A stretch of DNA of 64,000 bases from an uncultured Bacteroidales bacterium (lineage in GTDB: Bacteria; Bacteroidota; Bacteroidia; Bacteroidales; Paludibacteraceae). The stretch covers positions 1 to 64,000 of the forward strand of contig CACWNR010000008.1 in NCBI GenBank assembly GCA_902762355.1, given 5' to 3'. Of the stretch, positions 26,787 through 29,077 are shown piece by piece. The notes beneath the pieces are model-generated. The model did not search any database, was not told the origin of the DNA, and saw only the letters and a program-made list of their open reading frames with translations. Position 1 is the first letter of the stretch. Every line of letters starts with the position of its first letter. The translations under genes and the position numbers were made by a program.

Positions 26787-26818
26787 CAAAGGTACTACAA
26801 AAATTGCATATATGCAAA
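26787..26818 (-). promoter_or_regulatory. Promoter of the ssb operon
   Basis: Minus-strand -33 TTTG (26815-26818) within the palindrome TTGCATATATGCAA, 20 nt, -7 TACCTTTG (26787-26794). The stop codon of the upstream gene abuts the -7 box. Confidence 0.8.
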
Positions 26819-27418
26819 TTTTGGGACATTTTTTTTCTCGAAAATACGCCGGAGAGGGGTTTTGTGGCGAGTCTTGATGGGATTCAGACGGAAGTCAATG
26901 GGCTCGAAGGAGACGGGTTCTGTCGGTTCTTCGGCTGGTTTGGCGGCAGCTTGGAGCTCACGATAGATGGCGACGTAGGTGTATTGGTAGAAGCGTGAAT
27001 AGGGCTTCATACCGGGTTCCGGCTTTTCGCCGCCTTTGAAGACGCGGAAGTAGTGGTTGAGGAAGCGTAGATGCCACTCGAGGCCGGCACGAGAGGTATC
27101 GTGCTCAAGGGCGTGGGCTCGGTGCTGGGCTTCTTTGATGAGTTCGCGGTTGGCTACACATCCAGCAGACCATGTCTTGGGAAAGTGGTAGGTGTAGAGT
27201 TGGAGGACTTTGTTTTTGCGCGGGTAGCGGCGTACGATGATGTGTTTGCGACGTTTATAGCCGTCTTTGATGTCGTTCATAGCACCGCAGAAGTCTTTGA
27301 TGCCCACTGCGGGTTCAAAGTAACGTACTCCACGGGTGTGGAGGGCTGAAGAAGGAACAAAGTGATCGATGGCTTTGTCCAAACCGAGAATTGTGCTTGT
27401 TTTTAGATGCCGTGCCAT
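26795..27418 (-). CDS. Uncharacterised basic protein
   Basis: 207 residues, no signal peptide or membrane helix. Very basic N-terminal half (DGYKRRKHIIVRRYPRKNKV), a middle GGEKPEPGMKPYSRFYQYTY, and a basic C-terminus (IKTRHKTPLRRIFEKKNVPK). I do not recognise the family; a nucleic-acid-binding role would be a guess. The last codons (YMQFL and stop) are formed by the ssb promoter spacer and -33 region, so the natural C-terminus may have been replaced by promoter sequence. Its own promoter is at 27542. Confidence 0.6.
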   Translation of the reverse strand: MARHLKTSTILGLDKAIDHFVPSSALHTRGVRYFEPAVGIKDFCGAMNDIKDGYKRRKHIIVRRYPRKNKVLQLYTYHFPKTWSAGCVANRELIKEAQHRAHALEHDTSRAGLEWHLRFLNHYFRVFKGGEKPEPGMKPYSRFYQYTYVAIYRELQAAAKPAEEPTEPVSFEPIDFRLNPIKTRHKTPLRRIFEKKNVPKFAYMQFL

Positions 27419-27541
27419 GTGTTATAAACGATTGATATTAAGCTAATTGCAACGTGTTTAATTTTAGTATGGTCTAGGAAAAGAAGGACGCGGGTACTTT
27501 GCGGGGTTATTCCGGGGTGATTCAAAATCCTAAACTCGGTG

Positions 27542-27573
27542 CAAAGGTACGAAGAAATTTTGATATATGCAAG
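27542..27573 (-). promoter_or_regulatory. Promoter of the uncharacterised 207-residue gene
   Basis: Minus-strand -33 CTTG (27570-27573), 20 nt, -7 TACCTTTG (27542-27549). Leader about 120 nt with no obvious fold. Confidence 0.7.
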
Positions 27574-27659
27574 AGGAAATGAAAAATTGCCGCAAATATG
27601 CGCCAAAAATGATCATATATAGAGCGCTAACGTATCACCGATAACAGCCCAAGAAGAAT

Positions 27660-27840
27660 CTACATGCGGGAAAACATCCCGCGTAGTTGACAAAGCCACA
27701 CTCCGTATGGCGCTACACCCGCATTTATCCTGTATCGGGCGGGGCTCGGCGTTTACAAAGTAAAGACGAGGACGATACGGGATAACTCGGCCGCTCGCAG
27801 AGAGCGACCGGCGAAGGACTAATCCGCCTATGTCCGAGCC
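27660..27840 (+). ncRNA. Candidate structured RNA, unassigned family
   Basis: The 366-nt gap before 27980 holds no convincing protein gene but strong inverted repeats. Hairpin 27660-27686: GCGGGA/TCCCGC plus CTAC/GTAG. Hairpin 27695-27711: GCCA/TGGC. A 13-bp helix pairs 27725-27737 with 27773-27785 and encloses CTCG/CGAG and TTTAC-AAA-GTAAA. A three-way junction is closed by CTCGG (27786) and CCGAG (27834), with arms CGCTC/GAGCG and GGC..GGA/TCC..GCC. The 13-bp helix contains one T-G pair, valid as U-G only if the plus strand is transcribed. It does not look like tmRNA, RNase P, SRP or 6S RNA. No standard promoter was found. Confidence 0.55.
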
Positions 27841-27887
27841 ATAAACAAGAAAAGAACAAGAAAAAAGTAATGAAAAACGCGCGCGGG

Positions 27888-27919
27888 CTTGCGTATATGA
27901 AAAAAAAGTAGTAAATTTG
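27888..27919 (+). promoter_or_regulatory. Promoter of the 28-33 kb operon
   Basis: -33 CTTG (27888-27891) in CTTGCGTATATG, 20 nt, -7 TAAATTTG (27912-27919). Confidence 0.75.
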
Positions 27920-27979
27920 CAGCCGGAATTGAAATGAACGGGTAACGAAGTTGAAAATTTAAACAACAATTTATATATT

Positions 27980-29077
27980 ATGAAACACACATTTCTTTGG
28001 GTAGCGGCATTGCTGCTGACGTTCAGCGCTTCGATGAGCGCGGGGAACAAGAAACAAGCTGCGGGCGAGAACCTGAGCAAGGGTCAGTATGTTCGCTGTA
28101 TCGCTTTCTACAATCTGGAGAACCTCTTCGACACGATTCATGACGAGGGTAAGAACGACTACGAGTACTTGCCGGACGGTGGTATGAAATGGACGTCGAT
28201 GAAGTACGAGAACAAGATCAAACGGATGGGTTATGCGGTGGCACAGCTCGGTACGGATTATGATCCGCGCGGCGCTGCATGTATCGGTGTAGCCGAGGTG
28301 GAGAATATCGGTTGTCTGTACGATTTGTGCGCCGAGACGAACAGCAAGTATGGTCGCCGTCTGAAACCGATTTTGTTGGAAGGCCCGGATCGCCGTGGTG
28401 TGGATGTAGGCTTTTTGTATGACACGGTGCTCTTCAAGCCGTCCACGGTCAAGGGTTATGAGTTGAAAGCTCACTATGCTGACGGTGGTGTGATCAAGAC
28501 CCGTTTGCAGTTGCTTGTTTCGGGTTACCTGATGGGAGACGGCAAGCCGGAGAAGATCCATATGATCACGAATCACTGGCCGAGTCGTTACGGCGGTGAG
28601 TTGTCGAGCCGTCCCGGTCGTGACACAGCTGCCATGCTGACGATGCAGATCTGCGACTCGATCTACATGAAGGAGCCGAATGCGAAGATCATCATCATGG
28701 GTGACTTGAACGATGACCCGGATAACCACAGCTGCAAGGACGTGCTCAAAGCACGCAAGAAACCGCAACAAGTAGAGCCGAAGGGTTGGTATAACACGAT
28801 GTGGATCCACTTGGCTAACGGAACCGGCACGCTGTACTATAACGGCAGCTGGAACCTGTTCGACCAGATCATCATCTCTGAACCCTTGCTCAACGAAGAC
28901 AAGGATAGCGGCAGATGGGCATATTGGAAATCGCAGGTGTTCAACAAACCGTTCTTGACTGTTCAGGAGGGTAAGGACAAAGGTGCTCCGCTGCGTACCC
29001 ACAAAGCCGGCGTTTGGCAGAACGGTTACGGAGACCACTTCCCGACGATGATTTATCTGATTCGCAAGAAAGAGTAA
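27980..29077 (+). CDS. Exported endonuclease/exonuclease/phosphatase-family protein
   Basis: 365 residues with a signal peptide (MKHTFLWVAALLLTFSASMSA). DNase I-like fold landmarks: YNLENLFDTIHDEG, DVGFLYDTVLFKP, TNHWPSRYGG, IIMGDLNDDPDN, and the catalytic GYGDHFP histidine near the end. Members cleave nucleic acids or phosphodiesters; the substrate is unknown. First gene of a tightly packed operon running to sufD. Confidence 0.88.
   Translation: MKHTFLWVAALLLTFSASMSAGNKKQAAGENLSKGQYVRCIAFYNLENLFDTIHDEGKNDYEYLPDGGMKWTSMKYENKIKRMGYAVAQLGTDYDPRGAACIGVAEVENIGCLYDLCAETNSKYGRRLKPILLEGPDRRGVDVGFLYDTVLFKPSTVKGYELKAHYADGGVIKTRLQLLVSGYLMGDGKPEKIHMITNHWPSRYGGELSSRPGRDTAAMLTMQICDSIYMKEPNAKIIIMGDLNDDPDNHSCKDVLKARKKPQQVEPKGWYNTMWIHLANGTGTLYYNGSWNLFDQIIISEPLLNEDKDSGRWAYWKSQVFNKPFLTVQEGKDKGAPLRTHKAGVWQNGYGDHFPTMIYLIRKKE

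Follow-up and report, generated by a model that had tools for sequence, protein, structure and literature searches.

What occupies the long gap upstream of an Exo_endo_phos_3 family gene in this uncultured Bacteroidales genome, an RNA gene or something that has arrived there? The original prediction, made on the 64,000-nt stretch of DNA analysed here (the window), placed a structured RNA at 27616-27846 in a 366-nt gap. The gap between the flanking genes is in fact 561 nt (27419-27979), and the proposed span falls into three parts: the conserved core of a dispersed structured element (27699-27840), a hairpin repeat that is separate from it (27666-27698), and a remainder (27616-27665) that matched no model. 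The features of the locus are, from 5' to 3':

26798-27418, minus strand: adjoining multicopy gene, outside the core, whose 207-aa product belongs to no known family
27542-27572, minus strand: promoter-like motif of the 207-aa gene, facing away from the core (regular-expression scan and reading of the sequence)
27666-27698, plus strand: separate small hairpin repeat, a perfect stem and TAGTTGACAAAG tail, directly 5' of the core (R3, E 0.0021)
27699-27840, plus strand: core of the dispersed structured element, with dispersed copies (R1 138.8 bits; R2 108.9 bits over 27699-27846)
27710-27714, plus strand: possible 5' strand of an outer stem, P1, with its partner at 27837-27840 (no covariation support)
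27725-27737, plus strand: 5' strand of stem P2, 13 nt, pairing with 27773-27785 (double-sided changes at 6 of 13 pairs, 12 copies)
27738-27742, plus strand: 5' strand of the pseudoknot, GGCGG (GGCRG in the family), its state concordant with that of its partner
27743-27772, plus strand: apical part P2a, variable in length and sequence among copies (alignments and listings)
27773-27785, plus strand: 3' strand of P2, pairing with 27725-27737
27789-27809, plus strand: hairpin P3, with a single C-A mismatch in this copy (own versus crossed pairing)
27816-27835, plus strand: hairpin P4, GGAC/GTCC, which holds the pseudoknot loop (copies chosen without reference to the stem)
27824-27828, plus strand: 3' strand of the pseudoknot, CCGCC (CYGCC in the family), within the P4 loop
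27889-27919, plus strand: 48 nt past the core, a promoter-like motif (TTG, TAAATTTG) for the gene at 27980 (regular-expression scan)
27980-29077, plus strand: neighbouring gene of the Exo_endo_phos_3 family (Pfam E 2.6e-96)

Both promoter-like motifs were judged against what we take to be the promoter consensus. Core and promoter motif stand in the wrong order for a 5'-UTR regulator, which was therefore ruled out. A minus-strand ORF at 27613-28080, suspected from the outset of being spurious, overlaps the start of the gene at 27980 and has no Pfam match. Among the 70 core copies compared, overlapping ORFs of at least 90 aa occur in 25 by our own count (14 minus, 11 plus, at differing offsets) and none is retained in place; a minus-strand protein was dropped on these grounds.

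The stable helices of the original prediction are present, namely the 13-bp P2 stem, with one G-U pair when this copy is read on the plus strand, and hairpins at 27666-27682, 27789-27809 and 27816-27835; the pseudoknot was absent from that account. Thermodynamics by itself is weak support for structure (plus-strand MFE z = -1.88, with 9 of 200 shuffles equally stable; minus-strand z = -1.48), and the structural case rests on homologues. In most copies read, the core runs from an unpaired CTACACCCGCAT into P2, with GGCRG directly after the P2 5' strand, and on through P2a, P3, GCGA, P4 with CYGCC in its loop, and GAGCC to an A-rich stretch; the length of P2 ranges from 7 to 13 bp across the family.

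Covariation among homologues, the check that had been proposed with the prediction, is strong in P2, P3, P4 and the pseudoknot. In a set of 12 copies picked partly for P2 pairing, 88.8% of cells are paired and 44 show double changes, compared with 15.4 +/- 3.1 in shuffles and 4-10 when the partners are slid; pairs with double-sided changes number 11, compared with 7.8 in shuffles (12 of 500 shuffles reach 11), and one of the five measures, the number of further pair types (24), gives no excess over shuffles (122 of 500 reach the value). None of the 4 pairs of P1 is double-changed in these copies. The outer stem needed to complete a multiway junction is thus unproven. A second test used 60 copies selected by the P4 loop alone, and so is free of P2-selection bias for P3, P4 and the pseudoknot. 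Here P4 is paired in 53 of 60 copies, against 38% for randomly crossed 5' and 3' strands, P3 has 7 or 8 of its 8 positions paired in 35 of 60 copies, against 143 of 1200 crossed combinations, and the pseudoknot is concordant in all 52 readable copies.

The pseudoknot, 27738-27742 with 27824-27828, is the best-supported pairing of the fold. The 137 copies reduce to 109 distinct ones, 27 of them unscorable for the pseudoknot; in 81 of the 82 scorable copies a state-blind parser found the two strands in agreement (54% expected), and the sole discordant copy, L164, proved on reading to be a wrong pick by the parser. An earlier scoring had left 18 copies unscored and found 3 of 91 discordant (L063, L082 and L164), all three of them wrong picks. 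Both pseudoknot states, G-C and A-U, are found with each of the three main P4 types, so that co-descent of the whole block is not an easy explanation of the concordance. Compensatory changes thus occur in P2, P3, P4 and the pseudoknot and not in P1, and the stems differ wholesale among copies but remain paired.

The folded structure is genuine and corresponds to none of the catalogued RNA families. As the prediction had suggested, it lies outside known families: Rfam has no match at gathering score in the window, just two hits at E<=10 on this copy (E 8.5 and 8.7), and no family that recurs on the element among the E<=10 hits recorded at 20 other loci; HEARO neither matches this copy nor recurs at those loci. 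A likeness of the 5' part to the twister ribozyme was dropped when the Rfam scans gave it no support, and no description of the element was found in the open-licence literature.

A covarying structure within an intergenic gap is what a single new ncRNA gene would provide, and the number of copies refutes that explanation as stated. Searching the gap against 61 genomes with blastn gave scattered partial copies in its own genome and in genomes of the same genus, once the many hits at the query ends, which are promoter-like sequence common in the genus, had been excluded from the counts. R1, a covariance model built from nine copies with one stem shifted by a column, yielded 76 matches spread over 24 of 61 same-genus genomes, including nine in the genome of the window (G000); 70 of the 76 were analysed as loci of about 3 kb and 6 were left out. 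G000, which is 76% complete, holds 8-9 core matches. The core is also missing from most corresponding sites: the Exo_endo_phos_3 gene is present in 55 of the 61 genomes, and among the best 30 loci, less one with just 7 nt upstream (L201), the core precedes the gene at 1 of 29, namely this one, and is absent at the other 28. We therefore regard a single ncRNA gene as very improbable.

The corrected model, R2, was run in large searches whose strict filters lose weak matches. It found the core in only G000 and one other same-genus genome among 393 genomes of the order, with none in a third same-genus genome or in three other genera of the family, and in only G000 among 296 genomes of the phylum. 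The P4-loop pattern occurs in 67 stretches of genome contigs, all 67 titled Bacteroidales or Paludibacteraceae. A host is named in 17 of these titles and is always a ruminant (goat, sheep, yak, water buffalo or reindeer), and many of the matches are RUG isolates, which are rumen genomes. The exact P4-loop pattern has no match in viral contigs, nor did blastn find one among phage and plasmid records. As far as sampled, the element has been found only in one genus of uncultured gut bacteria and appears restricted to it. Copy number and distribution indicate a dispersed element, most probably one that lacks autonomy and is, or once was, mobile, and we give a probability of roughly 0.55 to the reading that the core is one copy of such an element, genus-specific, intergenic and without a gene of its own. 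The suggestion of a new Bacteroidales RNA survives in part, in that the fold is outside Rfam and found only in Bacteroidales; it is too strong for a repeat with many copies per genome, promoter motifs that mostly face away and no overall strand bias in its wobble pairs, rather than one RNA gene.

The hairpin repeat beside the core is a repeat in its own right. It consists of a stem, a three-base loop and a tail near AATNRACRAAG, is directional and genus-wide, and its copy at 27666-27698 is the only R3 match at E<=1 in the window. R3 found the repeat in 22 of 25 genus genomes and none of 16 others, including genomes where R1 saw no core, and so the repeat is separate from the core. Near cores it lies in the same orientation 64 times and in the opposite one twice (135 loci, not all distinct), and core flanks contain 378 perfect hairpins, against about 61 in Markov shuffles. 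Elsewhere copies of the repeat are arrayed in tandem, at a period near 40, 48 or 65 nt (L272, L273, L274).

Where the core lies relative to promoters bears on a different explanation, that it is an architectural or regulatory element acting at the DNA level behind promoters, as a cruciform or folded single strand. Within 400 nt, promoter-like motifs on the 5' side point away from the core in 66 and toward it in 13 of 94 copies; for motifs on the 3' side the counts are 50 away and 24 toward. This predominantly outward arrangement is as expected of such an element, as is the spacing of the downstream motif, which lies 36-58 nt past the core in 21 of the 50 copies (of 93) that have one within 400 nt. 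The remaining 43 of 93 copies have no downstream motif within that distance, however, the core is lacking at the 28 of 29 orthologous loci described above (best 30 of 55), and regulatory sites in DNA do not usually contain a pseudoknot. Although the scarcity and strand neutrality of wobble pairs in the core, given below, also fit a DNA-level role, we consider it decidedly unlikely.

Wobble pairs speak to the form in which the core folds. In P2, P3 and P4 together, by a strand-neutral scoring in which the choice of register gave wobble pairs half credit on either strand, there are 37 G-U pairs (2.4% of pairs) and 33 A-C pairs (2.1%); the same count gives 34 G-U in 409 pairs (8.3%) for 19 tRNAs. 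Taken singly, P4 has 9 G-U to 2 A-C and P3 has 13 to 18. With G-U and A-C nearly equal, the overall count shows no clear sign of the one-strand wobble that an evolving RNA should accumulate; stems seem to be replaced as wholes. With wobble pairs few and without overall strand bias, the folded form of the core may be RNA or single-stranded DNA. Structural conservation could also reflect host function, for example in a multicopy family of host ncRNAs whose copies are transcribed and act in trans or on their neighbours, so that the need for the RNA preserves the fold. Pseudoknotted folds in which unpaired letters are conserved are typical of functional RNA, and the covariation of the core, the preference for G-U in P4 (9 to 2) and the shared orientation of hairpin repeats and cores (64 to 2) all accord with that account. 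It is weakened by the overall wobble count, with its G-U fraction well below that of tRNAs, by the 5' motifs, which aim into the core in only 13 of 94 copies, and by a patchy presence in which mosaic or truncated copies persist, and we think it unlikely.

Comparisons between genomes bear on the proposed mobility. At this locus an SSB gene lies close to the core, and in several relatives, by reading, the SSB gene is directly divergent from the Exo_endo_phos_3 gene; in this genome the 207-aa gene and the core thus appear to have been acquired between the two. At one site shared by L134 and L162 with L166, the flanks closely resemble each other, but P2, P2a, P3, P4 and the state of the pseudoknot have all changed together, which shows exchange of the whole core. 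Some other copies are mosaic or truncated. Against mobility, some shared core sites persist across genomes; no transposition event or clean empty site was found between near-identical genomes. Nor were terminal inverted repeats found: for the 47 copies (of 109) that could be read at both ends, the exact ends of the element not being fixed, the longest inverted match between the 55-nt ends averages 5.2, compared with 5.1 when ends are crossed between copies, and matches of at least 8 nt occur in 2 of the 47 own pairs, compared with 13 of 400 crossed ones.

No transposase family is associated with the core among the mobiliser families searched in the 61 genomes. Y1_Tnp occurs in 8 of them, 3 of the 24 core-positive and 5 core-negative, and has no match in G000 (76% complete). 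These searches also bear on a possible origin of the core in one of the known RNA-linked mobile systems (IscB/TnpB omega RNA or HEARO, IStron, group II intron, retron), as their guide or scaffold RNA or as a relic. Dispersed structured sequences adjoin mobile genes in those systems, which speaks for the proposal. However, TnpB-type proteins (PF07282) are found in 0 of 61 genomes, with controls matched in 6 of 14; RVT_1 is no commoner with the core (6 of 24 genomes that have the core, 9 of 37 that lack it); RRXRR (PF14239, IscB-type) is likewise found in 0 of 61, though its control matched nowhere; and, as noted, no Rfam family stands out on this copy or recurs at the 20 other loci. A link to any of these systems is hence highly improbable.

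The 207-aa protein was also considered as mobiliser and rejected. Strong matches to it (E<1e-20) are found in 17 of the 24 core-positive genomes and none of the 37 core-negative ones, and weak ones (E 1e-14 to 1e-4) in 3 more and 7 more, respectively. By reading, most core-positive genomes also carry the neighbouring-gene proteins closest to our own, so relatedness may explain this co-occurrence. The gene is multicopy (4 hits in G000 and 7 in G029, several at contig ends), and the repeated unit to which it belongs here, 26777/26787-27572, is found again in other contigs of this genome, 88-92% identical, and does not include the core; of the 70 core loci, each about 3 kb long, only 4 were found to contain the protein. 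Its AlphaFold model (pLDDT 81.9) has no Foldseek match at E<=0.001 in the PDB or among viral models. The gene or a fragment of it was seen within 3 kb of the core at L073, L080, L102, L254, L257 and in the window, and at all six loci it is placed 5' of the core and faces away. A cluster of small genes (DUF5675, HNH_3 and others without a known family) lies upstream of the core at L150, L171, L145, L049 and L115. It stands near about 11 core places, counted by DUF5675 in 15 partly overlapping loci, is repeated within one genome, and looks like another mobile element.

Several known repeats resemble the core, which is short, non-coding and present in many intergenic copies. The host of one of them, BrickBuilt, is Porphyromonas gingivalis, which also belongs to the Bacteroidales. 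MITE-like repeats (ERIC, RUP, CIR and Correia; PMC2229807), among them BrickBuilt of P. gingivalis (PMC4596501), are likewise short, non-coding, intergenic, foldable and narrow in host range, with some ten copies per genome; BrickBuilt also contains tandem units. Unlike these, the core has no terminal inverted repeats, and it is a multi-helix pseudoknot whose stem sequences swap completely, whereas the MITE-like repeats conserve sequence and end repeats (PMC2229807, PMC4596501). REP/REPIN repeats, which go with RAYT transposases, are palindromic, extragenic and clustered, and are predicted to fold in single-stranded DNA or mRNA (PMC3116915); the core is similar in these respects, but its stem sequences are unconserved and the RAYT-type Y1_Tnp was not found in G000 and is present in only 3 of 24 core-positive genomes. 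STAXI is pseudoknot-based, discussed as RNA or single-stranded DNA, and found near genes for DNA-binding proteins such as SSB (PMC2864571). The core resembles it in its pseudoknot and, at this locus, in the nearby SSB gene, and differs in forming one large core instead of two or three tandem pseudoknots and in leaving the window without an Rfam match at gathering score.

The best reading of these sequence comparisons is that the core represents a new family of non-autonomous, structure-dependent mobile elements, spread by a mechanism that we infer. One strand would become single-stranded at some step, as a transcript or displaced DNA, and fold; a trans-acting factor would recognise the fold together with the conserved unpaired letters, and would spread or exchange core copies. 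The copies might then persist most readily in the region behind promoters, doing little harm there. A bolder and doubtful extension is a protein-free bacterial mobile element recognised by its three-dimensional fold and not by end sequence, in which a pseudoknotted core, as RNA or single-stranded DNA, would pass through cells with its helices free to change and land among directional hairpin repeats behind promoters. If RNA were the moving form, the element would be the bacterial counterpart of a SINE.

For the biology of these uncultured gut bacteria, many of them from ruminants, the core adds a dispersed bacterial repeat family conserved in a pseudoknotted fold and not in long sequence or end repeats. 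It also carries a warning that covarying structure in an intergenic gap need not imply an RNA gene. It would make two questions testable: whether small repeats may spread through recognition of their fold, and whether RNA or single-stranded DNA would be the acting form.
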